A stretch of 64,000 bases of DNA from Henricia sp. BOLD:AAB3569. Its lineage: Eukaryota; Echinodermata; Asteroidea; Spinulosida; Echinasteridae. The position numbers and the translations under genes are program-made. Positions 760 to 64,000 of this stretch are shown in pieces. The first letter of the stretch is position 1. Each line of letters begins with the position of its first letter. The notes under the pieces are model-generated. The model made no database searches and was not told the DNA's origin. It saw only the letters and a list, made by a program, of their open reading frames with translations. The stretch is from NCBI GenBank assembly GCA_037783545.1, contig JBBELK010000326.1:434001-498000 (forward strand). The letters run 5' to 3'.

Positions 760-992
760 CTATATTCCGCACTTGTCCTGAAAAAATGACAGACTTTCGC
801 CGTGAAATGGCCGAGAAATTTTAGAGTTTAGGGAGAACTGGGCTCGGGCTTCCTGCCTGCTCTGCAGACCGTGGCTGTCCGTGTACTCCTGATCGCTCTT
901 GCGCACGCTCAGTCTTGTTTGTCCAAACGTCGGCAAATTTGGAAGTCAAGGAATTTTCCGACGAACTTCCAATTGTGCATGCTCCAAACAGT
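760..992 (+). repeat. 233-bp monomer, 25-bp deletion
   Basis: TTGTTT is joined directly to GTCCAAACG at 920/921, removing the GGGACGGGA...GTGTG segment. It also carries GATCGCTCTTGCGCACGC and GGGAGAACTGGG. Only one base of homology flanks the junction. This is the earliest-looking member of a class seen 13 times. Confidence 0.92.
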
Positions 993-1766
993 CTATATTC
1001 CGCACTTGTCCTGAAAAATTGACAGACTTTCGCCGGGAAATGGCCGAGAAATTTCAGAGTTTAGGGAAAACTGGGCTCGGGCTTCCTGCCTGCTCTGCAG
1101 ACCGTGGCTGTCCGTGTACTCCTGATCACTCGTGCGCATGCTCAGTCTTGTTTGGGACGGGAATTTGGTCAAAGTGTGGTCCAAACGTCGGCAAATTTGG
1201 AAGTCAAGGAATTTTCCGACGAACTTCAAATTTTGTATGCTCCAAACAGTCTATATTCCGCACTTGTCCTGAAAAATTGACAGACTTTCGCCGTGAAATG
1301 GCCGAGAAATTTTAGAGTTTAGGGAAAACTGGGCTCGGGCTTCCTGCCTGCTCTGCAGACCGTGGCTGTCCGTGTACTCCTGATCACTCTTGCGCACGCT
1401 CAGTCTTGTTTGGGACGGGAATTTGGTCAAAGTGTGGTCCAAACGTCGGCAAATTTGGAAGTCAAGATATTTTCCGACGAACTTCAAATTTTGCATGCTC
1501 CAAACAGTCTATATTCCGCACTTGTCCTGAAATATTGACAGACTTTCGCCGGGAAATGGCCGAGAAATTTCAGAGTTTAGGAAAAACTGGGCTCGGGCTT
1601 CCTGCCTGCTCTGCAGACCGTGGCTGTCCGTGTACTCCTGATCACTCGTGCGCATGCTCAGTCTTGTTTGGGACGGGAATTTGGTCAAAGTGTGGTCCAA
1701 ACGTCGGCAAATTTGGTAGTCAAGAAATTTTCCGACGAACTTCAAATTTTGCATGCTCCAAACAGT

Positions 1767-1998
1767 CTATATTCCGCACTTGTCCTGAAAAATTGACAGA
1801 CTGTCGCCGGGAAATGGCCGAGAAATTTCAAGTTTAGGGAAACCTGGGCTCGGGCTTCCTGCCTGCTCTGCAGACCGTGGCTGTCCGTGTACTCCTGATC
1901 ACTCTTGCGCACGCTCAGTCTTGTTTATCCAAACGTCGGCAAATTTGGAAGTCAAGGAATTTTCCGACGAACTTCCAATTGTGCATGCTCCAAACAGT
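1767..1998 (+). repeat. 232-bp monomer, 25-bp deletion plus 1-bp loss
   Basis: Same 25-bp junction (1926/1927), with A replacing G just after it (TTTATCC), and CAGAG shortened by one base. It is the HOR partner of 760-992. Confidence 0.9.
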
Positions 1999-3286
1999 CT
2001 ATATTCCGCACTTGTCCTGAAAAATTGACAGACTTTCGCCGGGAAATGGCCGAGAAATTTCAGAGTTTAGGGAAAACTGGGCTCGGGCTTCCTGCCTGCT
2101 CTGCAGACCGTGGCTGTCCGTGTACTCCTGATCACTCGTGCGCATGCTCAGTCTTGTTTGGGACGGGAATTTGGTCAAAGTGTGGTCCAAACGTCGGCAA
2201 ATTTGGAGGTCAAGGAATTTTCCGACGAACTTCAAATTTTGCATGCTCCAAACAGTCTATATTCCGCACTTGTCCTGAAAAATTGACAGACTTTCGCCGT
2301 GAAATGGCCGAGAAATTTTAGAGTTTAGGGAAAACTGGGCTCGGGCTTCCTGCCTGCTCTGCAGACCGTGGCTGTCCGTGTACTCCTGATCACTCTTGCG
2401 CACGCTCAGTCTTGTTTGGGACGGGAATTTGGTCAAAGTGTGGTCCAAACGTCGGCAAATTTGGAAGTCAAGATATTTTCCGACGAACTTCAAATTGTGC
2501 ATGCTCCAAACAGTCTATATTCCGCACTTGTCCTGAAATATTGACAGACTTTCGCCGGGAAATGGCCGAGAAATTTCAGAGTTTAGGAAAAACTGGGCTC
2601 GGGCTTCCTGCCTGCTCTGCAGACCGTGGCTGTCCGTGTACTCCTGATCACTCGTGCGCATGCTCAGTCTTGTTTGGGACGGGAATTTGGTCAAAGTGTG
2701 GTCCAAACGTCGGCAAATTTGGTAGTCAAGAAATTTTCCGACGAACTTCAAATTTTGCATGCTCCAAACAGTCTATATTCCGCACTTGTCCTGAAAAATT
2801 GACAGACTGTCGCCGGGAAATGGCCGAGAAATTTCAAGTTTAGGGAAACCTGGGCTCGGGCTTCCTGCCTGCTCTGCAGACCGTGGCTGTCCGTGTACTC
2901 CTGATCACTCGTGCGCATGCTCAGTCTTGTTTGGGACGGGAATTTGGTCAAAGTGTGGTCCAAACGTCGGCAAATTTGGAAGTCAAGGAATTTTCCGACG
3001 AACTTCAAATTTGCATGCTCCAAACAGTCTATATTCCGCACTTGTCCTGAAAAATTGACAGACTTTCGCCGGGAAATGGCCGAGAAATTTCAGAGCTTAG
3101 GGAAAACTGGGCTCGGGCTTCCTGCCTGCTCTGCAGACCGTGGCTGTCCGTGTACTCCTGATCACTCGTGCGCATGCTCAGTGTTGTTTGGGACGGGAAT
3201 TTGGTCAAAGTGTGGTCCAAACGTCGGCAAATTTGGTAGTCAAGACATTTTCCGACGAACTTCAAATTTTGCAAGCTCCAAACAGT

Positions 3287-3548
3287 CTATATTTCGCACT
3301 TGTCCTGAAAAATTGACAGACTTTCGCCGGATAATGGCTGAGAAATTTAATAGTTTAGGGAAAACTGGGCTCGGGCTTCCTGCCTGCCTGCTCTGCAGAC
3401 CGTGGCTGTCCGTGTACTCCTGATCACTCGTGCGCATGCTCAGTCTTGTTTGGGACGGGAATTTGGTCAACGTGTGGTCCAAACGTCGGCAAATTTGGAA
3501 GTCAAGGAATTTTCCGACGAACTTCAAATTTTGCATGCTCCAAACAGT
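3287..3548 (+). repeat. 262-bp monomer with 4-bp CCTG expansion
   Basis: GCCTGCCTGCTCTGC of the consensus is extended by one CCTG unit near 3382-3390. The natural reading is slippage on the short CCTG/CCTG tract just before the CTGCAG site. The same monomer also carries GGATAATGGCTGAG and TTTAATAG substitutions. Confidence 0.9.
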
Positions 3549-4578
3549 CTATATTCCGCACTTGTCCTGAAAAATTGACAGACTTTCGCCGGGAAATGGC
3601 CGAGAAATTTCAGAGTTTAGGGAAAACTGGGCTCGGGCTTCCTGCCTGCTCTGCAGACCGTGGCTGTCCGTGTACTCCTGATCACTCGTGCGCATGCTCA
3701 GTCTTGTTTGGGACGGGAATTTGGTCAAAGTGTGGTCCAAACGTCGGCAAATTTGGAAGTCAAGGAATTTTCCGACGAACTTCAAATTGTGCATGCTCCA
3801 AACAGTCTATATTCCGCACTTGTCCTGAAAAATTTACAGACTTTCGACGGGAAATGGCCGAGAAATTTCAGAGTTTAGGGAAAACTGGGCTCGGGCTTCC
3901 TGCCTGCTCTGCAGACCGTGGCAGTCCGTGTACTCCTGATCACTCGTGCGCATGCTCAGTCTTGTTTGGGACGGGAATATGGTCAAAGTGTGGTCCAAAC
4001 GTCGGCAAATTTGGAAGTCAAGGAATTTTCCGACGAACTTCAAATTTTGCATGCTCCAAACAGTCTATATTCCGCACTTGTCCTGAAAAATTGACAGACT
4101 GTCGCCGGGAAATGGCCGAGAAATTTAAAGTTTAGGGAAACCTGGGCTCGGGCTTCCTGCCTGCTCTGCAGACCGTGGCTGTCCGTGTACTCCTGATCAC
4201 TCGTGCGCATGCTCAGTCTTGTTTGGGACGGGAATTTGGTCAAAGTGTGGTCCAAACGTCGGCAAATTTGGAAGTCAAGGAATTTTCCGACGAACTTCAA
4301 ATTTGCATGCTCCAAACAGTCTATATTCCGCACTTGTCCTGAAAAATTGACAGACTTTCGCCGGGAAATGGCCGAGAAATTTCAGAGCTTAGGGAAAACT
4401 GGGCTCGGGCTTCCTGCCTGCTCTGCAGACCGTGGCTGTCCGTGTACTCCTGATCACTCGTGCGCATGCTCAGTGTTGTTTGGGTCGGGAATTTGGTCAA
4501 AGTGTGGTCCAAACGTCGGCAAATTTGGTAGTCAAGACATTTTCCGACGAACTTCAAATTTTGCAAGCTCCAAACAGT

Positions 4579-4840
4579 CTATATTTCGCACTTGTCCTGA
4601 AAAATTGACAGACTTTCGCCGGATAATGGCTGAGAAATTTAATAGTTTAGGGAAAACTGGGCTCGGGCTTCCTGCCTGCCTGCTCTGCAGACCGTGGCTG
4701 TCCGTGTACTCCTGATCACTCGTGCGCATGCTCAGTCTTGTTTGGGACGGGAATTTGGTCAAAGTGTGGTCCAAACGTCGGCAAATTTGGAAGTCAAGGA
4801 ATTTTCCGACGAACTTCAAATTTTGCATGCTCCAAACAGT
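4579..4840 (+). repeat. 262-bp monomer, HOR partner of the one at 3287
   Basis: It carries the same CCTG expansion and the same GGATAATGG and TTTAATAG substitutions, 1,292 bp downstream. The expansion therefore predates the duplication of the 5-monomer unit. The second GCATGCTC motif is changed to GCAAGCTC in the monomer before it, as in the first copy. Confidence 0.9.
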
Positions 4841-6130
4841 CTATATTCCGCACTTGTCCTGAAAAATTGACAGACTTTCGCCGGGAAATGGCCGAGAAAT
4901 TTCAGAGTTTAGGGAAAACTGGGCTCGGGCTTCCTGCCTGCTCTGCAGACCGTGGCTGTCCGTGTACTCCTGATCACTCGTGCGCATGCTCAGTCTTGTT
5001 TGGGACGGGAATTTGGTCAAAGTGTGGTCCAAACGTCGGCAAATTTGGAAGTCAAGGAATTTTCCGACGAACTTCAAATTGTGCATGCTCCAAACAGTCT
5101 ATATTCCGCACTTGTCCTGAAAAATTGACAGACTTTCGACGGGAAATGGCCGAGAAATTTCAGAGTTTAGGGAAAACTGGGCTCGGGCTTCCTGCCTGCT
5201 CTGCAGACCGTGGCAGTCCGTGTACTCCTGATCACTCGTGCGCATGCTCAGTCTTGTTTGGGACGGGAATATGGTCAAAGTGTGGTCCAAACGTCGGCAA
5301 ATTTGGAAGTCAAGGAATTTTCCGACGAACTTCAAATTTTGCATGCTCCAAACAGTCTATATTCCGCACTTGTCCTGAAAAATGGACAGACTTTCGCCGT
5401 GAAATGGCCGAGAAATTTCAGAGTTTAGGAAAAACTGGGCTCGGGCTTCCTGCCTGCTCTGCAGACCGTGGCTGTCCGTGTACTCCTGATCACTCGTGCG
5501 CATGCTCAGTCTTGTTTGGGACGGGAATTTGGTCAAAGTGTGGTCCAAACGTCGGCAAATTTGGAAGTCAAGGAATTTTCCGACGAACTTCAAATTGTGC
5601 ATGCTCCAAACAGTCTATATTCCGCACTTGTCCTGAAAAATTGACAGACTTTCGCCGTGAAATGGCCGAGAAATTTCAGAGTTTAGGGAAAACTGGGCTC
5701 GGGCTTCCTGCCTGCTCTGCAGACCGTGGCTGTCCGTGTACTCCTGATCACTCGTGCGCATGCTCAGTCTTGTTTGGGACGGGAATTTGGTCAAAGTGTG
5801 GTCCAAACGTCGGCAAATTTGGAAGTCAAGGAATTTTCCGACGAACTTCAAATTTTGCATGCTCCAAACAGTCTATATTCCGCACTTGTCCTTAAAAATT
5901 GACAGACTTTCGCCGGGAAATGGCCGAGAAATTTCAGAGTTTAGGGAAAACTGGGCTCGGGCTTCCTGCCTGCTCTGCAGACCGTGGCTGTCCGTGTACT
6001 CCTCATCACTCGTGCGCATGCTCAGTCTTGTTTGGGACGGGAATTTGGTCAAAGTGTGGTCCAAACGTCGGCAAATTTGGAAGTCAAGGAATTTTCCGAC
6101 GAACTTCAAATTTTGCATGCTCCAAACAGT

Positions 6131-6363
6131 CTATATTCCGCACTTGTCCTTAAAAATTGACAGACTTTCGCCGGGAAATGGCCGAGAAATTTTAGAGTTT
6201 AGGGAGAACTGGGCTCGGGCTTCCTGCCTGCTCTGCAGACCGTGGCTGTCCGTGTACTCCTGATCACTCTTGCGCACGCTCAGTCTTGTTTGTCCAAACG
6301 TCGGCAAATTTGGAAGTCAAGGAATTTTCCGACGAACTTCCAATTGTGCATGCTCCAAACAGT
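6131..6363 (+). repeat. 233-bp monomer, 25-bp deletion
   Basis: Junction at 6291/6292. It shares GGGAGAACTGGG with the copy at 760, some 5.4 kb away, so the two are close relatives. It follows two CTTAAAAATTG monomers. Confidence 0.92.
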
Positions 6364-9300
6364 CTATATTCCGCACTTGTCCTGAAAAATTGACAGACTT
6401 TCGCCGGGAAATGGCCGAGAAATTTCAGAGTTTAGGGAAAACTGGGCTCGGGCTTCCTGCCTGCTCTGCAGACCGTGGCTGTCCGTGTACTCCTGATCAC
6501 TCGTGCGCATGCTCAGTCTTGTTTGGGACGGGAATTTGGTCAAAGTGTGGTCCAAACGTCGGCAAATTTGGAAGTCAAGGAATTTTCCGACGAACTTCAA
6601 ATTTTGCATGCTCCAAACAGTCTATATTCCGCACTTGTCCTTAAAAATTGACAGACTTTCGCCGGGAAATGGCCGAGAAATTTCAGAGTTTAGGGAAAAC
6701 TGGGCTCGGGCTTCCTGCCTGCTCTGCAGACCGTGGCTGTCCGTGTACTCCTCATCACTCGTGCGCATGCTCAGTCTTGTTTGGGACGGGAATTTGGTCA
6801 AAGTGTGGTCCAAACGTCGGCAAATTTGGAAGTCAAGGAATTTTCCGACGTACTTCAAATTTTGCATGCTCCAAACAGTCTATATTCCGCACTTGTCCTG
6901 AAAAATTGACAGACTTTCGCCGTGAAATGGCCGAGAAATGTTAGAGTTTAGGGAAAACTGGGCTCGGGCTTCCTGCCTGCTCTGCAGACCGTGGCTGTCC
7001 GTGTACTCCTGATCACTCTTGCGCACGCTCAGTCTTGTTTGGGACGGGAATTTGGTCAAAGTGTGGTCCAAACGTCGGCAAATTTGGAAGTCAAGAAATT
7101 TCCGACGAACTTCCAATTGTGCATGCTCCAAACAGTCTATATTCCGCACTTGTCCTGAAAAATTGACAGACTTTCGCCGGGAAATGGCCGAGAAATTTCA
7201 GAGTTTAGGGAAAACTGGGCTCGGGCTTCCTGCCTGCTCTGCAGACCGTGGCTGTCCGTGTACTCCTGATCACTCGTGCGCATGCTCAGTCTTGTTTGGG
7301 ACGGGAATTTGGTCAAAGTGTGGTCCAAACGTCGGCAAATTTGGAAGTCAAGGAATTTTCCGACGAACTTCAAATTTTGCATGCTCCAAACAATCTATAT
7401 TCCGCACTTGTCCTTAAAAATTGACAGACTTTCGCCGGGAAATGGCCGAGAAATTTCAGAGTTTAGGGAAAACTGGGCTCGGGCTTCCTGCCTGCTCTGC
7501 AGACCGTGGCTGTCCGTGTACTCCTCATCACTCGTGCGCATGCTCAGTCTTGTTTGGGACGGGAATTTGGTCAAAGTGTGGTCCAAACGTCGGCAAATTT
7601 GGAAGTCAAGGAATTTTCCGACGAACTTCAAATTGTGCATGCTCCAAACAGTCTATATTCCGCACTTGTCCTGAAAAATTGACAGACTTTCGCCGTGAAA
7701 TGGCCGAGAAATTTTAGAGTTTAGGGAAAACTGGGCTCGGGCTTCCTGCCTGCTCTGCAGACCGTGGCTGTCCGTGTACTCCTGATCACTCTTGCGCACG
7801 CTCAGTCTTGTTTGGGACGGGAATTTGGTCAAAGTGTGGTCCAAACGTCGGAAAATTTGGAAGTCAAGAAATTTCCGACGAACTTCAAATTTTGCATGCT
7901 CCAAACAATCTATATTCCGCACTTGTCCTGAAAAATGGACAGACTTTCGCCGGGAAATGGCCGAGAAATTTCAGAGTTTAGGAAAAACTGAGCTCGGGCT
8001 TCCTGCCTGCTCTGCAGACCGTGGCTGTCCGTGTACTCCTGATCACTCGTGCGCATGCTCAGTCTTGTTTGGGACGGGAATTTGGTCAAAGTGTGGTCCA
8101 AACGTCGGCAAATTTGGAAGTCAAGGAATTTTCCGACGAACTTCAAATTGTGCATGCTCCAAACAGTCTATATTCCGCACTTGTCCTGAAAAATTGACAG
8201 ACTTTCGCCGGGAAATGGCCGAGAAATTTCAGAGTTTAGGGAAAACTGGGCTCGGGCTTCCTGCCTGCTCTGCAGACCGTGGCTGTCCGTGTACTCCTGA
8301 TCACTCGTGCGCATGCTCAGTCTTGTTTGGGACGGGAATTTGGTCAAAGTGTGGTCCAAACGTCGGCAAATTTGGAAGTCAAGGAATTTTCCGACGAACT
8401 TCAAATTTGCATGCTCCAAACAGTCTATATTCCGCACTTGTCCTGAAAAATTGACAGACTTTCGCCGGGAAATGGCCGAGAAATTTCAGAGCTTAGGGAA
8501 AACTGGGCTCGGGCTTCCTGCCTGCTCTGCAGACCGTGGCTGTCCGTGTACTCCTGATCACTCGTGCGCATGCTCAGTGTTGTTTGGGACGGGAATTTAG
8601 TCAAAGTGTGGTCCAAACGTCGGCAAATTTGGTAGTCAAGACATTTTCCGACGAACTTCAAATTTTGCATGCTCCAAACAGTCTATATTCCGCACTTGTC
8701 CTGAAAAATTGACAGACTTTCGCCGGGAAATGGCCGAGAAATTTCATAGTTTAGGGAAAACTGGGCTCGGGCTTCCTGCCTGCTCTGCAGACCGTGGCTG
8801 TCCGTGTACTCCTGATCACTCGTGCGCATGCTCAGTCTTGTTTGGGACGGGAATTTGGTCAAAGTGTGGTCCAAACGTCGGCAAATTTGGAAGTCAAGGA
8901 ATTTTCCGACGAACTTCAAATTTTGCATGCTCCAAACAGTCTATATTCCGCACTTGTCCTTAAAAATTGACAGACTTTCGCCGGGAAATGGCCGAGAAAT
9001 TTCAGAGTTTAGGGAAAACTGGGCTCGGGCTTCCTGCCTGCTCTGCAGACCGTGGCTGTCCGTGTACTCCTCATCACTCGTGCGCATGCTCAGTCTTGTT
9101 TGGGACGGGAATTTGGTCAAAGTGTGGTCCAAACGTCGGCAAATTTGGAAGTCAAGGAATTTTCCGACGAACTTCAAATTTTGCATGCTCCAAACAGTCT
9201 ATATTCCGCACTTGTCCTGAAAAATTGACAGACTTTCGCCGTGAAATGGCCGAGAAATTTTAGAGTTTAGGGAAAACTGGGCTCGGGCTTCCTGCCTGCT

Positions 9301-9971
9301 CTGCAGACCGTGGCTGTCCGTGTACTCCTGATCACTCTTGCGCACGCTCAGTCTTGTTTGGGACGGGAATTTGGTCAAAGTGTGGTCCAAACGTCGGCAA
9401 ATTTGGAAGTCAAGAAATTTCCGACGAACTTCAAATTTTGCATGCTCCAAACAATCTATATTCCGCACTTGTCCTGAAAAATGGACAGACTTTCGCCGGG
9501 AAATGGCCGAGAAATTTCAGAGTTTAGGAAAAACTGAGCTCGGGCTTCCTGCCTGCTCTGCAGACCGTGGCTGTCCGTGTACTCCTGATCACTCGTGCGC
9601 ATGCTCAGTCTTGTTTGGGACGGGAATTTGGTCAAAGTGTGGTCCAAACGTCGGCAAATTTGGAAGTCAAGGAATTTTCCGACGAACTTCAAATTGTGCA
9701 TGCTCCAAACAGTCTATATTCCGCACTTGTCCTGAAAAATTGACAGACTTTCGCCGGGAAATGGCCGAGAAATTTCAGAGTTTAGGGAAAACTGGGCACG
9801 GGCTTCCTGCCTGCTCTGCAGACCGTGGCTGTCCGTGTACTCCTGATCACTCGTGCGCATGCTCAGTCTTGTTTGGGACGGGAATTTGGTCAAAGTGTGG
9901 TCCAAACGTCGGCAAATTTGGAAGTCAAGGAATTTTCCGACGAACTTCAAATTTTGCATGCTCCAAACAGT

Positions 9972-10231: not shown

Positions 10232-10489
10232 CTATATTCCGCACTTGTCCTTAAAAATTGACAGACTTTCGCCGGGAAATGGCCGAGAAATTTCAGAGTT
10301 TAGGGAAAACTGGGCTCGGGCTTCCTGCCTGCTCTGCAGACCGTGGCTGTCCGTGTACTCCTCATCACTCGTGCGCATGCTCAGTCTTGTTTGGGACGGG
10401 AATTTGGTCAAAGTGTGGTCCAAACGTCGGCAAATTTGGAAGTCAAGGAATTTTCCGACGAACTTCAAATTTTGCATGCTCCAAACAGT

Positions 10490-14943: not shown

Positions 14944-15099
14944 GTTTAGGGAAAACTGGGCTCGGGCTTCCTGCCTGCTCTGCAGACCGTGGCTGTCCGT
15001 GTACTCTTGCGCACGCTCAGTCTTGTTTGTCCAAACGTCGGCAAATTTGGAAGTCAAGGAATTTTCCGACGAACTTCAAATTTGCATGCTCCAAACAGT
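14878..15099 (+). repeat. 222-bp monomer, 25-bp and 10-bp deletions plus 1-bp loss
   Basis: In addition to the 25-bp junction (15028/15029), CTGATCACTC is missing near 15006, so GTACTC runs straight into TTGCGC. The 10-bp loss removes one of two ACTC direct repeats with the bases between them, and with it the TGATCA site. AAATTTGC accounts for the last base. Confidence 0.92.
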
Positions 15100-50500: not shown

Positions 50501-51002
50501 TGTCCTGAAAAATTGACAGACTTTCGCAGTGAAATGGCCGAGAAATTTTAGAGTTTAGGGAAAACTGGGCTCGGGCTTCCTGCCTGCTCTGCAGACCGTG
50601 GCTGTCCGTGTACTCCTGATCACTCTTGCGCACGCTCAGTCTTGTTTGGGACGGGAATATGGTCAAAGTGTGGTCCAAACGTCGGCAAATTTGGAAGTCA
50701 AGATATTTTCCGACGAACTTCAAATTTTGCATGCTCCAAACAGTCTATATTCCGCACTTGTCCTGAAAATTTGACAGACTTTCGCCGGGAAAAGGCCGAG
50801 AAATTTCAGAGTTTAGGAAAAACTGGGCTCGGGCTTCCTGCCTGCTCTGCAGACCGTGGCTGTCCGTGTACTCCTGATCACTCGTGCGCATGCTCAGTCT
50901 TGTTTGGGACGGGAATTTGGTCAAAGTGTGGTCCAAACGTCGGCAAATTTGGTAGTCAAGAAATTGTCCGACGAACTTCAAATTTTGCATGCTCCAAACA
51001 GT
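44553..51002 (+). repeat. 25 consecutive exact 258-bp monomers with nested short HORs
   Basis: From 44553 to 51003 every marker interval is 258 bp (6,450 bp), unlike the indel-rich left half. Repeating combinations include dimers (46101-46616 against 46617-47132), trimers (774 bp), a 1,032-bp tetramer offset (46875 with 47907; 47133 with 48165) and an 1,806-bp heptamer offset (48681-49196 with 50487-51002, both with GAAATTGTCCGACG). Marker substitutions are GGAATATGG, GATATTTTCC, AAAAGGCCGAG, CGCCAGGAAAAGG and CGCAGTGAAATGG. Confidence 0.82.
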
Positions 51003-52033
51003 CTATATTCCGCACTTGTCCTGAAAAATTGACAGACTGTCGCCGGGAAATGGCCGAGAAATTTTAGAGTTTAGGGAAAACTGGGCTCGGGCTTCCTGCC
51101 TGCTCTGCAGACCGTGGCTGTCCGTGTACTCCTGATCACTCGTGCGCATGCTCAGTCTTGTTTGGGACGGGAATTTGGTCAAAGTGTGGTCCAAACGTCG
51201 GCAAATTTGGAAGTCAAGGAATTTTCCGACGAACTTCAAATTTGCATGCTCCAAACAGTCTATATTCCGCACTTGTCCTGAAAAATTGACAGACTTTCGC
51301 CGGGAAATGGCCGAGAAATTTCAGAGCTTAGGGAAAACTGGGCTCGGGCTTCCTGCCTGCTCTGCAGACCGTGGCTGTCCGTGTACTCCTGATCACTCGT
51401 GCGCATGCTCAGTGTTGTTTGGGACGGGAATTTGGTCAAAGTGTGGTCCAAACGTCGGCAAATTTGGTAGTCAAGACATTTTCCGACGAACTTCAAATTT
51501 TGCATGCTCCAAACAGTCTATATTCCGCACTTGTCATGAAAAATTAACAGACTTTCGCCGGGAAATGGCCGAGAAATTTCAGAGTTTAGGGAAAACTGGG
51601 CTCGGGCTTCCTGCCTGCTCTGCAGACCGTGGCTGTCCGTGTACTCCTGATCACTCTTGCGCACGCTCAGTCTTGTTTGGGACGGGAATTTGGTCAAAGT
51701 GTGGTCCAAACGTCGGCAAATTTGGAAGTCAAGAAATTTTCCGACGAACTTCAAATTTTGCATGCTCCAAACAGTCTATATTCCGCACTTGTCCTAAAAA
51801 ATTGACAGACTTTCGCCGGGAAATGGCCGAGAAATTTCAGAGTTTAGGAAAAACTGGGCTCGGGCTTCCTGCCTGCTCTGCAGACCGTGGCTGTCCGTGT
51901 ACTCCTGATCACTCGTGCGCATGCTCAGTCTTGTTTGGGACAGGAATTTGGTCAAAGTGTGGTCCAAACGTCGGAAAATTTGGTAGTCAAGAAATTTTCC
52001 GACGAACTTCAAATTTTGCATGCTCCAAACAGT
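51003..52033 (+). repeat. four linking monomers (51003, 51260, 51518, 51776)
   Basis: The first is 257 bp (AAATTTGC loss). The second is of the AGCTTAGGG / GTGTTG type. The third has CATGAAAAATTAACAG with the CTTGCGCACG form. The fourth has GGGACAGGAATTTGG and GTCGGAAAATTTGG, features that carry on into the 52-54 kb block. Confidence 0.75.
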
Positions 52034-54613
52034 CTATATTCTGCACTTGTCCTCAAAAATTGACAGACTGTCGCCGGGAAATGGCCGAGAAATTCCAGAG
52101 TTTAGGGAAAACTGGGCTCGGGCTTCCTGCCTGCTCTGCATACCGTGGCTGTCCGTGTACTCCTGATCACTCGTGCGCATGCTCAGTGTTGTTTGGGACG
52201 GGAATTTGGTGAAAGTGTGGTCCAAACGCCGGCAAATTTGGAAGTCAAGAAATTTTCCGACGAACTTCAAATTTTGCATGATCCAAACAGTCTATATTCC
52301 GCTCTAGTCAAGAAAAATTTACAGACTTTCTCCGGGAAATGGCCGAGAAATTTATGAGTTTAGGGAAAACTGGGCTTGGGCTTCCTGCCTGCTCTGCAGA
52401 CCGTGGCTGTCTGTGTACTCCTGATCACTCGTGCGCATGCTCAGTCTTGTTTGGGACGGGAATTTGGTCAAAGTGTGGTCCAAACGTCGGCAAATTTGGA
52501 AGTCAAGAAATTTTCCGACGAACTTCAAATTTTGCATGCTCCAAACAGTCTATATTCCGCACTTGTCCTGAAAAATTTACAGACTTTCGCCGTGAAATGG
52601 CCGAGCAATTTCAGAGTTTAGGGAAAACTGGGCTCGGGCTTCCTGCCTGCTCTGCAGACCGTGGCTGTCCGTGTACTCCTGATCACTCGTGCGCATGCTC
52701 AGTCTTGTTTGGGACGGGAATTTGGTCAAAGTGTGGTCCAAACGTCGGCAAATTTGGAAGTCAAGGAATTTTCCGACGAACTTCCAATTGTGCATGCTCC
52801 AAACAGTCTATATTCCGCACTTGTCCAGAAAAATTGACAGACTTTCGCCGGGAAATGGCCGAGAAATTTCAGAGTTTAGGGAAAACTGGGCTCGGGCTTC
52901 CTGCCTGCTCTGCAGACCGTGGCTGTCCGTGTACTCCTGATCACTCGTGCGCATGCTCAGTCTTGTTTGGGACGGGAATTTGGTCAAAGTGTGGTCCAAA
53001 CGTCGGAAAATTTGGAAGTCAAGAAATTTTCCGACGAACTTCAAATTTTGCATGATCCAAACAGTCTATATTCCGCACTTGTCATGAACAATTTACAGAC
53101 TTTCTCCGGGAAATGGCCGATAAATTTATGAGTTTAGGGAAAACTGGGCTTGGGCTTCCTGCCTGCTCTGCAGACCGTGGCTGTCCGTGTACTCCTGATC
53201 ACTCGTGCGCATGCTCAGTCTTGTTTGGGACGGGAATTTTGTCAAAGTGTGGTCCAAACGTAGGCAAATTTGGAAGTCAAGAAATTTTCCGACGAACTTC
53301 AAATTTTGCATGATCCAAACAGTCTATATTCCGCACTTGTCATGAAAAATTTACAGACTTTCTCCGGGAAATGGCCGAGAAATTTCTGAGTTTAGGGAAA
53401 ACTGGGCTTGGGCTTCCTGCCTGCTCTGCAGACCGTGGCTGTCCGTGTACTCCTGATCACTCGTGCGCATGCTCAGTCTTGTTTGGGACAGGAATTTGGT
53501 CAAAGTGTGGTCCAAACGTCGGAAAATTTGGTAGTCAAGAAATTTTCCGACGAACTTCAAATTTTGCATGCTCCAAACAGTCTATATTCCGCACTTGTCC
53601 TCAAAAATTGACAGACTGTCGCCGGGAAATGGCCGAGAAATTCCAGAGTTTAGGGAAAACTGGGCTCGGGCTTCCTGCCTGCTCTGCATACCGTGGCTGT
53701 CCGTGTACTCCTGATCACTCGTGCGCATGCTCAGTGTTGTTTGGGACGGGAATTTGGTGAAAGTGTGGTCCAAACGCCGGCAAATTTGGAAGTCAAGAAA
53801 TTTTCCGACGAACTTCAAATTTTGCATGATCCAAACAGTCTATATTCCGCTCTAGTCAAGAAAAATTTACAGACTTTCTCCGGGAAATGGCCGAGAAATT
53901 TATGAGTTTAGGGAAAACTGGGCTTGGGCTTCCTGCCTGCTCTGCAGACCGTGGATGTCTGTGTACTCCTGATCACTCGTGCGCATGCTCAGTCTTGTTT
54001 GGGACGGGAATTTGGTCAAAGTGTGGTCCAAACGTCGGCAAATTTGGAAGTCAAGAAATTTTCCGACGAACTTCAAATTTTGCATGCTCCAAACAGTCTA
54101 TATTCCGCACTTGTCCTGAAAAATTTACAGACTTTCGCCGTGAAATGGCCGAGCAATTTCAGAGTTTAGGGAAAACTGGGCTCGGGCTTCCTGCCTGCTC
54201 TGCAGACCGTGGCTGTCCGTGTACTCCTGATCACTCGTGCGCATGCTCAGTCTTGTTTGGGACGGGAATTTGGTCAAAGTGTGGTCCAAACGTCGGCAAA
54301 TTTGGAAGTCAAGGAATTTTCCGACGAACTTCCAATTGTGCATGCTCCAAACAGTCTATATTCCGCACTTGTCCAGAAAAATTGACAGACTTTCGCCGGG
54401 AAATGGCCGAGAAATTTCAGAGTTTAGGGAAAACTGGGCTCGGGCTTCCTGCCTGCTCTGCAGACCGTGGCTGTCCGTGTACTCCTGATCACTCGTGCGC
54501 ATGCTCAGTCTTGTTTGGGACGGGAATTTGGTCAAAGTGTGGTCCAAACGTCGGAAAATTTGGAAGTCAAGAAATTTTCCGACGAACTTCAAATTTTGCA
54601 TGATCCAAACAGT
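52034..54613 (+). repeat. 6-monomer HOR, 1,548 bp, second copy losing one monomer
   Basis: Unit 52034-53581 recurs from 53582. Frames at 52145-52357, 52339-53055 and 52689-52940 reappear 1,548 bp later almost unchanged. Private marks are CTCAAAAATTG, TGCATACCG, GGTGAAAGTGTGG, AAACGCCGGC, CGCTCTAGTCAAG, TTTATGAG and TTTCTGAG. In copy 1 a TTTATGAG monomer (53066) precedes a TTTCTGAG monomer (53324). In copy 2 these are fused into one monomer at 54614, so one monomer was lost at the junction with the 15-monomer HOR. Confidence 0.87.
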
Positions 54614-57600
54614 CTATATTCCGCACTTGTCATGAACAATTTACTGATTTTCTCCGGGAAATGGCCGAGAAATTTCTGAGTTTAGGGAAAACTGGGCTTG
54701 GGCTTCCTGCCTGCTCTGCAGACCGTGGCTGTCCGTGTACTCCTGATCACTCGTGCGCATGCTCAGTCTTGTTTGGGACGGGAATTTGGTCAAAGTGTGG
54801 TCCAAACGTCGGCAAATTTGGTAGTCAAGAAATTTTCCGACGAACTTCAAATTTTGCATGCTCCAAACAGTCTATATTCCGCACTTGTCCTGAAAAATTG
54901 ACAGACTTTCGCCGTAAAATGGCCGATAAATTTCAGAGTTTAGGGAAAACTGGGCTAGGGCTTCCTGCCTGCTCTGCAGACCGTGGCTGTCCGTGTACTC
55001 CTGATCACTCGTGCGCATGCTCAGTCTTGTTTGGGACGGGAATTTGGTCAAAGTGTGGTCCAAACGTCGGCAAATTTGGAAGTCAAGACATTTTCCGACG
55101 AACTTCAAATTTTGCATGCTCCAAACAGTCTATATTCCGCACTTGTCCTGAAAAATTGACAGACTTTCGCCGTGAAATGGCCGAGAAATTTCAGAGTTTA
55201 GGGAAAACTGGGCTCGGGCTTCCTGCCTGCTCTGCAGACCGTGGCTGTCCGTGTACTCCTGATCACTCGTGCGCATGCTCAGTCTTGTTTGGGACGGGAA
55301 TTTGGTCAAAGTGTGGTCCAAACGTCGGCAAATTTGGAAGTCAAGGAATTTTCCGACGAACTTCCAATTGTGCATGCTCCAAACAGTCTGTATTCCGCAC
55401 TTGTCCTAAAAAATTGACAGACTTTCGCCGGGAAATGGCCGAGAAATTTCAGAGTTTAGGGAAAACTGGGCTCGGGCTTCCTGCCTGCTCTGCAGACCGT
55501 GGCTGTCCGTGTACTCCTGATCACTCGTGCGCATGCTCAGTCTTGTTTGGGACGGGAATTTGGTCAAAGTGTGGTCCAAACGTCGGCAAATTTGGAAGTC
55601 AAGGAATTTTCCGACGAACTTCAAATTTTGCATGCTCCAAACAGTCTATATTCCGCACTTGTCCTGAAAAATTGACAGACTTTCGCCGGGAAATGGCCGA
55701 GAAATTTCAGAGTTTAGGGAAAACTGGGCTCGGGCTTCCTGCCTGCTCTGCAGACCGTGGCTGTCCGTGTACTCCTGATCACTCTTGAGCACGCTCAGTC
55801 TTGTTTGGGACGGGAATTTGGTCAAAGTGTGGTCCAAACGTCGGCAAATTTGGAAGTCAAGAAATTTCCGACGAACTTCAAATTTTGCATGCTCCAAACA
55901 GTCTATATTCCGCACTTGTCCTGAAAAATTGACAGACTTTCGCCGGGAAATGGCCGAGAAATTTCAGAGTTTAGGAAAAACTGGGCTCGGGCTTCCTGCC
56001 TGCTCTGCAGACCGTGGCTGTCCGTGTACTCCTGATCACTCGTGCGCATGCTCAGTCTTGTTTGGGACGGGAATTTGGTCAAAGTGTGGTCCAAACGTTG
56101 GCAAATTTGGAAGTCAAGGAATTTTCCGACGAACTTCAAATTTTGCATGCTCCAAACAGTCTATATTCCGCACTTGTCCTGAAAAATTGACAGACTTTCG
56201 CCGTGAAATGGCCGAGAAATTTTAGAGTTTAGGGATAACTGGGCTCGGGCTTCCTGCCTGCTCTGCAGACCGTGGCTGTCCGTGTACTCCTGATCACTCT
56301 TGAGCACGCTCAGTCTTGTTTGGGACGGGAATTTGGTCAAAGTGTGGTCCAAACGTCGGCAAATTTGGAAGTCAAGAAATTTCCGACGAACTTCAAATTT
56401 TGCATGCTCCAAACAGTCTATATTCCGCACTTGTCCTGAAAAATTGACAGACTTTCGCCGGGAAATGGCCGAGAAATTTCAGAGTTTAGGAACAACTGGG
56501 CTCGGGCTTCCTGCCTGCTCTGCAGACCGTGGCTGTCCGTGTACTCCTGATCACTCGTGCGCATGCTCAGTCTTGTTTGGGACGGGAATTTGGTCAAAGT
56601 GTGGTCCAAACGTCGGCAAATTTGGAAGTCAAGGAATTTTCCGACGAACTTCAAATTGTGCATGCTCCAAACAGTCTATATTCCGCACTTGTCCTGAAAA
56701 ATTGACAGACTTTCGCCGGGAAATGGCCGAGAAATTTCAGAGTTTAGGGAAAACTGGGCTCGGGCTTCCTGCCTGCTCTGTGGACCGTGGCTGTCCGTGT
56801 ACTCCTGATCACTCGTGCGCATGCTCAGTCTTGTTTGGGACGGGAATTTGGTCAAAGTGTGGTCCAAACGTCGGCAAATTTGGAAGTCAAGGAATTTTCC
56901 GACGAACTTCAAATTTTGCATGCTCCAAACAGTCTATATTCCGCACTTGTCCTGAAAAATTGACAGACTTTCGCCGTGAAATGGCCGAGAAATTTCAGAG
57001 TTTAGGAAAAACTGGGCTCGGGCTTCCTGCCTGCTCTGCAGACCGTGGCTGTCCGTGTACTCCTGATCACTCGTGCGCATGCTCAGTCTTGTTTGGGACG
57101 GGAATTTGGTCAAAGTGTGGTCCAAACGTCGGCAAATTTGGAAGTCAAGGAATTTTCCGACGAACTTCAAATTTTGCATGCTCCAAACAGTCTATATTCC
57201 GCACTTGTCCTGAAAAATTGACAGACTTTCGCCGTGAAATGGCCGAGAAATTTTAGAGTTTAGGGAAAACTGGGCTCGGGCTTCCTGCCTGCTCTGCAGA
57301 CCGTGGCTGTCCGTGTACTCCTGATCACTCTTGCGCACGCTCAGTCTTGTTTGGGACGGGAATTTGGTCAAAGTGTGGTCCAAACGTCGGCAAATTTGGA
57401 AGTCAGGGAATTTTCCGACGAACTTCCAATTGTGCATGCTCCAAACAGTCTATATTCCGCACTTGTCCTGAAAAATTGACAGACTTTCGCCGGGAAATGG
57501 CCGAGAAATTTCAGAGTTTAGGGAAAACTGGGCTCGGGCTTCCTGCCTGCTCTGCAGACCGTGGCTGTCCGTGTACTCCTGATCACTCGTGCGCATGCTC

Positions 57601-58481
57601 AGTCTTGTTTGGGACGGGAATTTGGTCAAAGTGTGGTCCAAACGTCGGCAAATTTGGAAGTCAAGGAATTTTCCGACGAACTTCAAATTTTGCATGCTCC
57701 AAACAGTCTATATTCCGCACTTGTCCTGAAAAAATTGGCAGACTTTCGCCGTGAAATGGCCGAGAAATTTTAGAGTTTAGGGAAAACTGGGCTCGGGCTT
57801 CCTGCCTGCTCTGCAGACCGTGGCTGTCCGTGTACTCCTGATCACTCTTGCGCACGCTCAGTCTTGTTTGGGACGGGAATTTGGTCAAAGTGTGGTCCAA
57901 ACGTCGGCAAATTTGGAAGTCAAGAAATTTCCGACGAACTTCAAATTTTGCATGCTCCAAACAGTCTATATTCCGCACTTGTCCAGAAAAATTGACAGAC
58001 TTTCGCCGGGAAATGGCCGAGAAATTTCAGAGTTTAGGGAAAACTGGGCTCGGGCTTCCTGCCTGCTCTGCAGACCGTGGCTGTCCGTGTACTCCTGATA
58101 ACTCGTGCGCATGCTCAGTCTTGTTTGGGACGGGAATTTGGTCAAAGTGTGGTCCAAACGTCGGAAAATTTGGAAGTCAAGAAATTTTCCGACGAACTTC
58201 AAATTTTGCATGATCCAAACAGTCTATATTCCGCACTTGTCATGAACAATTTACTGATTTTCTCCGGGAAATGGCCGAGAAATTTATGAGTTTAGGGAAA
58301 ACCGGGCTTGGGCTTTCTGCCTGCTCTGCAGACCGTGGCTGTCCGTGTACTCCTGATCACTCGTGCGCATGCTCAGTCTTGTTTGGGACGGGAATTTTGT
58401 CAAAGTGTGTTCCAAACGTAGGCAAATTTGGAAGTCAAGAAATTTTCCGACGAACTTCAAATTTTGCATGATCCAAACAGT
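54614..58481 (+). repeat. 15-monomer HOR, copy 1 (3,868 bp)
   Basis: Fifteen monomers, of which 55646 and 56161 are 257 bp. Marks include CGTAAAATGGCCGATAAATTT (near 54914), GGGCTAGGGC, AACAGTCTGTATTCC, CTTGAGCACGC in the two 257-bp monomers, GGAACAACTGGG, AGTCAGGGAATT, and a GAAAAAATTGGCAG monomer (57708) whose extra A offsets a lost T. TGTGGACCG near 56780 is unique to this copy. Confidence 0.92.
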
Positions 58482-61400
58482 CTATATTCCGCACTTGTCA
58501 TGAAAAATTTACAGACTTTCTCCGGGAAATGGCCGAGAAATTTCTGAGTTTAGGGAAAACTGGGCTTGGGCTTCCTGCCTGCTCTGCAGACCGTGGCTGT
58601 CCGTGTACTCCTGATCACTCGTGCGCATGCTCAGTCTTGTTTGGGACGGGAATTTGGTCAAAGTGTGGTCCAAACGTCGGCAAATTTGGTAGTCAAGAAA
58701 TTTTCCGACGAACTTCAAATTTTGCATGCTCCAAACAGTCTATATTCCGCACTTGTCCTGAAAAATTGACAGACTTTCGCCGTAAAATGGCCGATAAATT
58801 TCAGAGTTTAGGGAAAACTGGGCTAGGGCTTCCTGCCTGCTCTGCAGACCGTGGCTGTCCGTGTACTCCTGATCACTCGTGCGCATGCTCAGTCTTGTTT
58901 GGGACGGGAATTTGGTCAAAGTGTGGTCCAAACGTCGGCAAATTTGGAAGTCAAGACATTTTCCGACGAACTTCAAATTTTGCATGCTCCAAACAGTCTA
59001 TATTCCGCACTTGTCCTGAAAAATTGACAGACTTTCGCCGTGAAATGGCCGAGAAATTTCAGAGTTTAGGGAAAACTGGGCTCGGGCTTCCTGCCTGCTC
59101 TGCAGACCGTGGCTGTCCGTGTACTCCTGATCACTCGTGCGCATGCTCAGTCTTGTTTGGGACGGGAATTTGGTCAAAGTGTGGTCCAAACGTCGGCAAA
59201 TTTGGAAGTCAAGGAATTTTCCGACGAACTTCCAATTGTGCATGCTCCAAACAGTCTGTATTCCGCACTTGTCCTAAAAAATTGACAGACTTTCGCCGGG
59301 AAATGGCCGAGAAATTTCAGAGTTTAGGGAAAACTGGGCTCGGGCTTCCTGCCTGCTCTGCAGACCGTGGCTGTCCGTGTACTCCTGATCACTCGTGCGC
59401 ATGCTCAGTCTTGTTTGGGACGGGAATTTGGTCAAAGTGTGGTCCAAACGTCGGCAAATTTGGAAGTCAAGGAATTTTCCGACGAACTTCAAATTTTGCA
59501 TGCTCCAAACAGTCTATATTCCGCACTTGTCCTGAAAAATTGACAGACTTTCGCCGGGAAATGGCCGAGAAATTTCAGAGTTTAGGGAAAACTGGGCTCG
59601 GGCTTCCTGCCTGCTCTGCAGACCGTGGCTGTCCGTGTACTCCTGATCACTCGTGCGCATGCTCAGTCTTGTTTGGGACGGGAATTTGGTCAAAGTGTGG
59701 TCCAAACGTCGGCAAATTTGGAAGTCAAGGAATTTTCCGACGAACTTCAAATTTTGCATGCTCCAAACAGTCTATATTCCGCACTTGTCCTGAAAAATTG
59801 ACAGACTTTCGCCGGGAAATGGCCGAGAAATTTCAGAGTTTAGGGAAAACTGGGCTCGGGCTTCCTGCCTGCTCTGCAGACCGTGGCTGTCCGTGTACTC
59901 CTGATCACTCTTGAGCACGCTCAGTCTTGTTTGGGACGGGAATTTGGTCAAAGTGTGGTCCAAACGTCGGCAAATTTGGAAGTCAAGAAATTTCCGACGA
60001 ACTTCAAATTTTGCATGCTCCAAACAGTCTATATTCCGCACTTGTCCTGAAAAATTGACAGACTTTCGCCGGGAAATGGCCGAGAAATTTCAGAGTTTAG
60101 GGATAACTGGGCTCGGGCTTCCTGCCTGCTCTGCAGACCGTGGCTGTCCGTGTACTCCTGATCACTCTTGAGCACGCTCAGTCTTGTTTGGGACGGGAAT
60201 TTGGTCAAAGTGTGGTCCAAACGTCGGCAAATTTGGAAGTCAAGAAATTTCCGACGAACTTCAAATTTTGCATGCTCCAAACAGTCTATATTCCGCACTT
60301 GTCCTGAAAAATTGACAGACTTTCGCCGGGAAATGGCCGAGAAATTTCAGAGTTTAGGAACAACTGGGCTCGGGCTTCCTGCCTGCTCTGCAGACCGTGG
60401 CTGTCCGTGTACTCCTGATCACTCGTGCGCATGCTCAGTCTTGTTTGGGACGGGAATTTGGTCAAAGTGTGGTCCAAACGTCGGCAAATTTGGAAGTCAA
60501 GGAATTTTCCGACGAACTTCAAATTGTGCATGCTCCAAACAGTCTATATTCCGCACTTGTCCTGAAAAATTGACAGACTTTCGCCGGGAAATGGCCGAGA
60601 AATTTCAGAGTTTAGGGAAAACTGGGCTCGGGCTTCCTGCCTGCTCTGCAGACCGTGGCTGTCCGTGTACTCCTGATCACTCGTGCGCATGCTCAGTCTT
60701 GTTTGGGACGGGAATTTGGTCAAAGTGTGGTCCAAACATCGGCAAATTTGGAAGTCAAGGAATTTTCCGACGAACTTCAAATTTTGCATGCTCCAAACAG
60801 TCTATATTCCGCACTTGTCCTGAAAAATTGACAGACTTTCGCCGTGAAATGGCCGAGAAATTTCAGAGTTTAGGAAAAACTGGGCTCGGGCTTCCTGCCT
60901 GCTCTGCAGACCGTGGCTGTCCGTGTACTCCTGATCACTCGTGCGCATGCTCAGTCTTGTTTGGGACGGGAATTTGGTCAAAGTGTGCTCCAAACGTCGG
61001 CAAATTTGGAAGTCAAGGAATTTTCCGACGAACTTCAAATTTTGCATGCTCCAAACAGTCTATATTCCGCACTTGTCCTGAAAAATTGACAGACTTTCGC
61101 CGTGAAATGGCCGAGAAATTTTAGAGTTTAGGGAAAACTGGGCTCGGGCTTCCTGCCTGCTCTGCAGACCGTGGCTGTCCGTGTACTCCTGATCACTCTT
61201 GCGCACGCTCAGTCTTGTTTGGGACGGGAATTTGGTCAAAGTGTGGTCCAAACGTCGGCAAATTTGGAAGTCAGGGAATTTTCCGACGAACTTCCAATTG
61301 TGCATGCTCCAAACAGTCTATATTCCGCACTTGTCCTGAAAAATTGACAGACTTTCGCCGGGAAATGGCCGAGAAATTTCAGAGTTTAGGGAAAACTGGG

Positions 61401-62349
61401 CTCGGGCTTCCTGCCTGCTCTGCAGACCGTGGCTGTCCGTGTACTCCTGATCACTCGTGCGCATGCTCAGTCTTGTTTGGGACGGGAATTTGGTCAAAGT
61501 GTGGTCCAAACGTCGGCAAATTTGGAAGTCAAGGAATTTTCCGACGAACTTCAAATTTTGCATGCTCCAAACAGTCTATATTCCGCACTTGTCCTGAAAA
61601 AATTGGCAGACTTTCGCCGTGAAATGGCCGAGAAATTTTAGAGTTTAGGGAAAACTGGGCTCGGGCTTCCTGCCTGCTCTGCAGACCGTGGCTGTCCGTG
61701 TACTCCTGATCACTCTTGCGCACGCTCAGTCTTGTTTGGGACGGGAATTTGGTCAAAGTGTGGTCCAAACGTCGGCAAATTTGGAAGTCAAGAAATTTCC
61801 GACGAACTTCAAATTTTGCATGCTCCAAACAGTCTATATTCCGCACTTGTCCAGAAAAATTGACAGACTTTCGCCGGGAAATGGCCGAGAAATTTCAGAG
61901 TTTAGGGAAAACTGGGCTCGGGCTTCCTGCCTGCTCTGCAGACCGTGGCTGTCCGTGTACTCCTGATAACTCGTGCGCATGCTCAGTCTTGTTTGGGACG
62001 GGAATTTGGTCAAAGTGTGGTCCAAACGTCGGAAAATTTGGAAGTCAAGAAATTTTCCGACGAACTTCAAATTTTGCATGATCCAAACAGTCTATATTCC
62101 GCACTTGTCATGAACAATTTACTGATTTTCTCCGGGAAATGGCCGAGAAATTTATGAGTTTAGGGAAAACCGGGCTTGGGCTTTCTGCCTGCTCTGCAGA
62201 CCGTGGCTGTCCGTGTACTCCTGATCACTCGTGCGCATGCTCAGTCTTGTTTGGGACGGGAATTTTGTCAAAGTGTGGTCCAAACGTAGGCAAATTTGGA
62301 AGTCAAGAAATTTTCCGACGAACTTCAAATTTTGCATGATCCAAACAGT
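58482..62349 (+). repeat. 15-monomer HOR, copy 2 (3,868 bp)
   Basis: Aligns with copy 1 at an offset of exactly 3,868 bp over nearly its whole length. Private substitutions are GTGTTCC (58410), AAACATCGG (60738) and GTGTGCTCC (60988). The three monomers at 59514-60285 are ordered full-length, CTTGAGCACG, CTTGAGCACG, whereas copy 1 has CTTGAGCACG, full-length, CTTGAGCACG. Total length is the same, so the exchange kept monomer number. Confidence 0.93.
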
Positions 62350-64000
62350 CTATATTCCGCACTTGTCATGAAAAATTTACAGACTTTCTCCGGGAAATGG
62401 CCGAGAAATTTCTGAGTTTAGGGAAAACTGGGATTGGGCTTCCTGCCTGCTCTGCAGACCGTGGCTGTCCGTGTACTCCTGATCACTCGTGCGCATGCTC
62501 AGTCTTGTTTGGGACGGGAATTTGGTCAAAGTGTGGTCCAAACGTCGGCAAATTTGGTAGTCAAGAAATTTTCCGACGAACTTCAAATTTTGCATGCTCC
62601 AAACAGTCTATATTCCGCACTTGTCCTGAAAAATTGACAGACTTTCGCCGTAAAATGGCCGATAAATTTCAGAGTTTAGGGAAAACTGGGCTAGGGCTTC
62701 CTGCCTGCTCTGCAGACCGTGGCTGTCCGTGTACTCCTGATCACTCGTGCGCATGCTCAGTCTTGTTTGGGACGGGAATTTGGTCAAAGTGTGGTCCAAA
62801 CGTCGGCAAATTTGGAAGTCAAGACATTTTCCGACGAACTTCAAATTTTGCATGCTCCAAACAGTCTATATTCCGCACTTGTCCTGAAAAATTGACAGAC
62901 TTTCGCCGTGAAATGGCCGAGAAATTTCAGAGTTTAGGGAAAACTGGGCTCGGGCTTCCTGCCTGCTCTGCAGACCGTGGCTGTCCGTGTACTCCTGATC
63001 ACTCGTGCGCATGCTCAGTCTTGTTTGGGACGGGAATTTGGTCAAAGTGTGGTCCAAACGTCGGCAAATTTGGAAGTCAAGGAATTTTCCGACGAACTTC
63101 CAATTGTGCATGCTCCAAACAGTCTGTATTCCGCACTTGTCCTAAAAAATTGACAGACTTTCGCCGGGAAATGGCCGAGAAATTTCAGAGTTTAGGGAAA
63201 ACTGGGCTCGGGCTTCTTGCCTGCTCTGCAGACCGTGGCTGTCCGTGTACTCCTGATCACTCGTGCGCATGCTCAGTCTTGTTTGGGACGGGAATTTGGT
63301 CAAAGTGTGGTCCAAACGTCGGCAAATTTGGAAGTCAAGGAATTTTCCGACGAACTTCAAATTTTGCATGCTCCAAACAGTCTATATTCCGCACTTGTCC
63401 TGAAAAATTGACAGACTTTCGCCGGGAAATGGCCGAGAAATTTCAGAGTTTAGGGAAAACTGGGCTCGGGCTTCCTGCCTGCTCTGCAGACCGTGGCTGT
63501 CCGTGTACTCCTGATCACTCGTGCGCATGCTCAGTCTTGTTTGGGACGGGAATTTGGTCAAAGTGTGGTCCAAACGTCGGCAAATTTGGAAGTCAAGGAA
63601 TTTTCCGACGAACTTCAAATTTTGCATGCTCCAAACAGTCTATATTCCGCACTTGTCCTGAAAAATTGACAGACTTTCGCCGGGAAATGGCCGAGAAATT
63701 TCAGAGTTTAGGGAAAACTGGGCTCGGGCTTCCTGCCTGCTCTGCAGACCGTGGCTGTCCGTGTACTCCTGATCACTCTTGAGCATGCTCAGTCTTGTTT
63801 GGGACGGGAATTTGGTCAAAGTGTGGTCCAAACGTCGGCAAATTTGGAAGTCAAGAAATTTCCGACGAACTTCAAATTTTGCATGCTCCAAACAGTCTAT
63901 ATTCCGCACTTGTCCTGAAAAATTGACAGACTTTCGCCGGGAAATGGCCGAGAAATTTCAGAGTTTAGGAAAAACTGGGCTCGGGCTTCCTGCCTGCTCT
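62350..64000 (+). repeat. 15-monomer HOR, copy 3 (partial, cut by window end)
   Basis: The first six monomers and part of a seventh are present. Up to 63,896 it follows copy 2, with a full-length monomer at 63382 and a 257-bp one at 63640. Private changes are GGGATTGGG (62433), CTTCTTGCC (63217) and GAGCATGCTC (about 63785). The final monomer reads AGGAAAAACTGGG rather than the GGGATAACTGGG of copy 2, so it may depart from copy 2 there. Confidence 0.88.

Follow-up and report, generated by a model that had tools for sequence, protein, structure and literature searches.

Changing local periods in a 258-bp satellite array of the sea star Henricia probably arose by independent tandem duplications

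The higher-order period of a 258-bp satellite in the sea star Henricia sp. BOLD:AAB3569 changes repeatedly along a single array, which raises the question of whether the changes record an ordered history or a set of unrelated events. The window, i.e., the whole stretch of DNA analyzed, is 64,000 nucleotides long and corresponds to positions 434,001 to 498,000 of contig JBBELK010000326.1 (C326) in the genome assembly GCA_037783545.1 (740.7 Mb in 2,104 contigs). In 400 bases of mitochondrial COI from this genome, AAA stands at two positions where the best solved chain has Asn, as in the echinoderm and flatworm code, and with a close match to solved COI chains of mammals this points to an echinoderm. 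A first-pass annotation made from the letters alone had described a stepwise series of periods produced by overlapping unequal exchanges or amplifications, each building on the last. It is probable that the local period changes instead arose by independent, homology-guided tandem duplications that landed at random along the array, in many cases over earlier duplications. Such duplications of 4 to 21 monomers (1.0-5.4 kb) would mostly have added one copy, either by out-of-register sister chromatid exchange or by an equivalent copying act (break-induced replication or template switching). Deletions of similar size would also have occurred, and single variants would have been spread across the array by a second process or would go back to polymorphism already present among the founding copies.

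The window lies within a long 258-bp tandem satellite array on C326. According to anchor matches and monomer reading, head-to-tail monomers in one orientation (plus strand, as for all features below) fill it from position 1 to 64,000; 198 of the 250 complete monomers are exactly 258 bp, and the window monomers have a mean pairwise divergence of 2.9%. The array ends on the right at C326:572,218 and extends on the left past 334,253, a span of approximately 238 kb or more. In the 264 kb of C326 that were read, a 26-base anchor gave 929 matches on one strand and none on the opposite strand; a single match, at C326:577,130, is isolated outside the array. Genome-wide, a 36-base stretch of the monomer occurs in 20,318 exact copies and its reversed control in none, which by arithmetic (20,318 copies of 258 bp) amounts to approximately 5 Mb, or 0.7% of the genome. 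Copies are found on at least six contigs (C326, C81, C71, C58, C46, and C30). The sequence therefore has the head-to-tail arrangement over tens of kilobases and the high copy number at several loci that characterize satellite DNA.

The observed lags are confirmed. Since no coordinates had been given for each period, we placed the period intervals by a lag scan, and the p-values are optimistic because the intervals were set after that scan. When monomer identity was compared at lags of 1 to 20, the described lag was the best in 11 of 12 pairs of period and interval, so that n-mer periodicity stands above the monomer background, as in a higher-order repeat (HOR) array; the first-ranked lags were 4, 5, 3, 6, 9, 12, 13, 7, 3, 6, and 15, with local permutation p-values of 0.0005 to 0.007. 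The second 5-monomer period, first placed at 37.9-41.2 kb, ranked tenth there (p 0.16); at 41.7-44.3 kb, an interval picked after inspection of the table, it stands out clearly (0 of 2000 shuffles). Local periodicity also depends on the order of the monomers, with 14 near-identical diagonal runs versus none in 100 shuffles. A 7-mer at 47.6-51.1 kb was missing from the earlier list of periods. The other feature of an HOR array, many successive copies of one n-mer, is not what we found: the 39 tandem runs over 238 kb comprise 18 two-copy runs and one three-copy run, the others being partial (calls by a length-ratio rule, lags up to 25 monomers). HOR is a generous term for what are mostly single duplications.

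The duplications were delimited by a base-level scan of C326 from 334 to 573 kb for segments at lags below 6.5 kb sharing an exact 450-base word; because the scan was ungapped and word filtered, older or indel-bearing duplications are missed. It yielded 90 near-identical segments. A matched length approximating the lag is the mark of one tandem duplication, consisting of copy one, copy two, and a short junction stretch that cannot be placed. In 24 of the 90 segments the matched length differed from the lag by -100 to +320 bp, versus 8.6 (SD 2.5) with permuted lags and a maximum of 20 over 5,000 permutations; this range was chosen after the scan had been seen, and the 13-mer described below lies outside it (459 bp over). 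One of the 24 events was copied along inside a 21-mer duplication, leaving 23 that are independent; this event, the copy of a nested 7-mer at C326:350,828, was left out of the junction analysis, and the phase and overlap tests keep all 24. Over the 24 events, the duplicated units range from 1,031 to 5,417 bp (median 1,806), or 4 to 21 monomers, and the copies diverge by 0 to 0.61%. Near-identical runs are scattered over C326 from 340 to 560 kb, and in a scan that covered all lags up to 926, the 70 found all fall within 90 monomers (approximately 23 kb).

Within the window, the scan placed a 9-mer (2,323 bp) at 10,295-15,006, a 12-mer (3,061 bp) at 12,930-19,168, a 13-mer (3,282 bp) at 17,247-24,269, and a 15-mer (3,868 bp) at 56,224-63,969, each present as two copies; the mismatches are 0 in 2,389 bp, 2 in 3,178 bp, 19 in 3,741 bp, and 8 in 3,878 bp, respectively. 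The 7-mer at 28,284-33,476 (1,770/1,747 bp) has three copies, and each step from one to the next shows 1 mismatch in 1,676 bp. Two-copy duplications of a further 7-mer (1,806 bp; 47,564-51,141) and of a 6-mer (1,548 bp; 51,862-54,644) have 3 mismatches in 1,772 bp and 2 in 1,235 bp.

The junctions indicate how the copies were joined. Junction monomers are 257-259 bp in 22 of the 23 events, the remaining one being 233 bp, and because they keep the normal length, joining was guided by monomer homology; in-register junctions are what homology-guided exchange would leave. Together with the excess of segments whose matched length approximates the lag, the junctions support the proposal of overlapping unequal exchange or amplification.

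We simulated random in-register duplications and deletions in 8 runs, with an event rate that was our own estimate from the young duplications and unit sizes taken from the 23 events, so that agreement in unit size is built in. The simulated arrays had 12-26 runs of two copies and 0-2 of three (observed, 18 and 1) and 17-20 distinct local periods (observed, 20), and the dominant period switched between neighboring blocks at a frequency of 0.80-0.91 (observed, 0.90). A short simulation (T=4), begun from a uniform array at a depth of four mutations per monomer, gave mean pairwise differences of 7.4-8.2, which fits the array, and 31-33 runs at lags up to 25, compared with 39 observed.

Several results weigh against independent duplications as the full account. 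Mean pairwise differences reached 100-111 in the long simulation versus 7.9 observed, with only 20-48 near-identical runs in all versus 70. At T=4, the total was 32-37 runs versus 70, with 0-5 at lags greater than 25 versus 31 observed, and no variant reached 5% in any of 3 runs versus 22 in the array; at T=8, 1, 11, and 4 variants did so, yet mean differences rose to 15-16. Homology tracts at the junctions had a median of 69 bp versus 141.5 bp at 1,678 random in-register points (p 0.003; tracts of at least 600 bp are omitted from this null), the tract was zero at 6 of 23 junctions, and a preference for long identity, looked for in the 23 events, was not seen. Later mutation and the clipping rule may have shortened the tracts. 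The comparison was also made within one assembly, in which no duplication was seen beside its undoubled state. As modeled, neutral duplication and deletion would give period switching, not the longer-lag repeats or the array-wide variants, which would need a second process or old polymorphism.

The junction tracts bear on the manner of copying. It is an open contender, if somewhat short of an even chance, that break-induced replication or fork template switching, and not reciprocal unequal crossing over, made the duplications; this is a question within the duplication model, and its likelihood is not to be added to the others. Out-of-register copying behind a fork would give the same two-copy in-register product, and the homology tracts are not long. 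A review describes a break-induced replication model, sets it against unequal exchange for HORs, and states that long-read centromere structures have put the latter in question (PMC8997354). The present data are compatible with replication-based and with reciprocal exchange.

Assembly error would also produce tandem copies, and a false duplication from repeat assembly or haplotype joining would likewise give a matched length close to the lag. Concatemers are present in this assembly: contig C955 carries mitochondrial COI three times at an exact spacing of 16,221 bp, which is the length of contig C2104, and is probably a concatemer of the circular mitochondrial genome. The 9-mer, with its absence of mismatches, is compatible with such an artefact. 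At all 8 differences between the copies of the 15-mer, one side has a 25-base context that is unique in the 264 kb read, as base errors would also give; against an artefact, all 8 are substitutions, two of them at adjacent bases, in a scan to which indels are invisible. Copy divergence over the 24 events is not uniformly near zero, and C81 has the same kind of event at other lags (773 and 2,064 bp). We consider it very unlikely that the two-copy blocks are artefacts.

An ordered history would require a true HOR array in which stable units were each amplified from the end of the previous one. Blocks are indeed common to neighboring units. The 2,323-bp and 3,061-bp units share leading monomers, as had been noticed: 10,607-12,683 (2,077 bp, approximately eight monomers) matches the second copy of the 12-mer with 2 mismatches at lag 5,384, the sum of 2,323 and 3,061. 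The end of the 3,061-bp unit is the start of the 3,282-bp unit, since the second copy of the 12-mer (from 15,991) overlaps the first copy of the 13-mer (from 17,247), and unit boundaries do fall inside monomers. This block sharing comes partly from the physical overlap of duplicated segments. Two cases can be placed in order. In the 1,921 bp common to the 12-mer and the 13-mer, the 12-mer partner has 1 difference and the 13-mer partner has 11, and therefore the 13-mer predates the 12-mer. Outside the window, at C326:343.8-354.6 kb, a 7-mer duplication (7 mismatches) is enclosed in full by a later 21-mer duplication (2 mismatches). The order of the 9-mer and the 12-mer (0 versus 2 differences) is not resolvable; at both sites, the 9-mer copy agrees with the first 12-mer copy.

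Beyond these cases, the staged history is not supported. Most units have two copies, ages measured as mismatches per matched length are non-monotonic along the window, and 10 overlapping pairs among the 24 events compare with 9.9 under random placement (p 0.52). The right third of the window is moreover a zone of another monomer class. Events fall on earlier events at chance frequency, without a progressive series. What stands of the stepwise series is thus the changing of the period and not its ordering, and one event is shown to build on another in two instances; a staged HOR array is a very improbable explanation. Site-specific breakage at one monomer position is highly implausible, since the junction midpoints of the 24 events do not cluster along the monomer (Rayleigh p 0.44), a monomer folded as a single strand is unremarkable (z 0.25), and the CENP-B-box pattern, also sought as a mark of an active centromere, has 0 matches in the window against 0.48 expected. 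The CENP-B box is not known to be required outside mammals.

Independent duplication leaves the shared variants to be explained. Among 723 of the 739 258-bp monomers (16 that depart from the consensus at more than 25 positions were dropped), 22 variant sites reach 5% in the C326 array, and all four allele combinations occur in 99 of 231 site pairs. Linkage declines with distance: mean r2 is 0.18 for sites 5-20 bp apart and 0.03 for sites 90-130 bp apart (medians, 0.023 and 0.009), and the 7 site pairs less than 5 bp apart have a mean r2 of just 0.035. Neighboring monomers are barely more alike in their alleles than expected, with an excess of at most 0.03 at the lags tried. We read this pattern as long-range exchange of short patches or mixing of old variants, with recurrent mutation as a less favored possibility.

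Some variants are unevenly distributed, and eight that define a divergent class A were chosen after this had been seen. Class-A monomers are common in two stretches of C326, at approximately 340-388 kb and 475-505 kb, and sparse outside them. By variant scoring, the 23 window monomers with at least 2 of the 8 variants all lie from 41,965 rightward (zone 41,965-64,000), and the window thus passes from one monomer-class zone to another near 41 kb. On C81, none of 38 monomers in one 10-kb piece and 10 of 37 in another are of class A. In the second C81 piece, 3,616 bp match both 15-mer copies of the window (99.56% and 99.47% identity); the remaining 23 of the 25 longest matches listed are 96.8 to 99.2% identical, and 46 of the 75 C81 monomers read are identical to some C326 monomer. 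The block common to both contigs is doubled at 8 monomers on C81 (lag 2,064, 4 mismatches) and at 15 on C326. C81 also has a three-monomer duplication (L029:4202-5149; lag 773 bp, 1 mismatch). Tentatively, two separable processes may act on the same satellite, strictly local block duplication with short-lived periods and longer-range short-patch exchange that mixes single variants over 238 kb or more and from contig to contig, with linkage lost inside one monomer, accompanied by alternating class zones on C326 and C81 and by the doubling of one block at 15 versus 8 monomers.

Deletions within monomers are an event kind other than block duplication, and they are spread by later duplications. 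At least six are distinct (10, 23, 25, 31, 150, and 154 bp), with microhomology of only 1-4 bp. Monomer lengths and deletion junctions identify eleven 222/223-bp monomers at 14,868-35,301; no others of this length occur in the 264 kb read from C326. Ten of the eleven carry an exact 25-bp plus 10-bp deletion junction (junctions at 14,999-33,183), and no such double junction was found in the pieces of C81 and C71 read (L008, L029, L030, and L031). Two monomers of 108 bp, each with 150 bp deleted internally, lie five monomers apart at 39,168 and 40,308 in the window, and three 104-bp monomers with a different deletion occur elsewhere on C326, the first at 368,288.

Structures of this kind are already known from maize CentC and human alpha-satellite; what is new is a well-resolved animal case, which is useful for counting events and is not surprising. 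In maize, the CentC HORs of CEN10 are adjacent segmental duplications, drawn as pairs that mostly overlap, with seven dates of 98-498 thousand years and a 10-monomer one as the youngest (PMC4806543). The likeness extends to adjacent, overlapping duplications of various ages, and likewise CEN10 has a recombinant monomer at the recombination point. The differences are that CentC is a plant satellite with monomers taken as full length at 147 nt or more and with retrotransposon insertions, and that its authors favor alternative, microhomology-mediated end joining for adjacent duplications, unlike the junctions here, which are in register with monomers of normal length (PMC4806543). Human alpha-satellite is likewise arranged in tandem, with higher-order units of which newer ones derive from older ones and with zones of differing composition; human HORs can run for megabases in layers, in contrast to the mostly two-copy events and the 238 kb or more of mixed blocks described here (PMC11062924). 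Smith's unequal-exchange model, as relayed in a review, has random out-of-step duplication and deletion that lead to changing periodicities, as here; alone, its simulated version lacks variants common to the whole array (via PMC8997354). No paper on a 258-bp echinoderm satellite was found among the titles and abstracts listed from open-licence literature, which is weak evidence of absence.

Approximately two dozen divergence-graded duplications in one assembled animal array are enough to test satellite models by counting. An apparently ordered series of periods needs only random duplication, and caution is warranted when staged histories are read from HOR maps. The failure of the model on array-wide variants and longer-lag repeats marks the need for a second process or an old founding polymorphism.

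The remaining periodic features of the window come from the lag scans. A 4-monomer duplication occupies 983-3,018 (983-1,988 versus 1,989-3,018), and positions 1-2,504 lie within a block that is a repeat of C326:413,322-417,136 and shows 2 events in 15 monomers. A 5-monomer two-copy duplication with 256/262-bp marker monomers follows at 2,763-5,346, and then a weak, older zone of lags 3 and 6 at 5,347-9,954, which includes a 1,289-bp segment (7,120-8,408) at lag 1,546 with 5 mismatches. The 3/6 and 4 zones are weak, with 3.9-6.2 differences per monomer. A 3-mer duplication lies at 33,533-35,301 and a weak 5-mer duplication at 41,707-45,574 (approximately 4 differences per monomer), and the lag of the 15-mer, 3,868, recurs at 54,649-55,784. 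An Rfam search and a tRNA scan of the window gave 0 matches each. The window listing has 47 open reading frames of at least 150 amino acids; long frames are expected because a 258-bp repeat is 86 codons.

At the right edge of the array (L026:4121-9850, or C326:572,121-577,850), the terminal monomer is truncated and by eye carries class-A variants. Sequence approximately 2.6 kb past this edge recurs at other places in the genome, with identities of up to 99%, and is probably a mobile element. The 3 kb of right flank starting there, tested for a haplotype relation between C81 and C326, proved to be high copy, with 72 matches from 40 scored of 910 candidates. A mobile-element origin of the satellite found no support in the five minor loci examined, where array edges differ and no single carrier was found.

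Three of the minor loci have a common non-satellite interspersed piece near their arrays, which looks SINE-like by eye. On C46, broken frames at L033:885-2689 end 17 bases before a satellite array of approximately 750 bp; judging by their motifs, they may belong to a non-LTR reverse transcriptase. Other forms of the satellite are longer. The 8 kb of C71 read (C71:1,256,001-1,264,000; L031) form a near-regular 531-bp dimer of 258 and 273 bp with one extra 258-bp monomer, and the 273-bp monomer differs from the 258-bp monomer mainly at columns 73-175 or so, the rest being near identical. Short dispersed arrays of a relative at L032, L034, and L035 have periods of mostly 283-298 bp, with one 255-bp row in L032, and by eye L033 has extra sequence in the same middle part of the monomer as the 273-bp form of C71. 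The 258-bp form looks like a shortened version.

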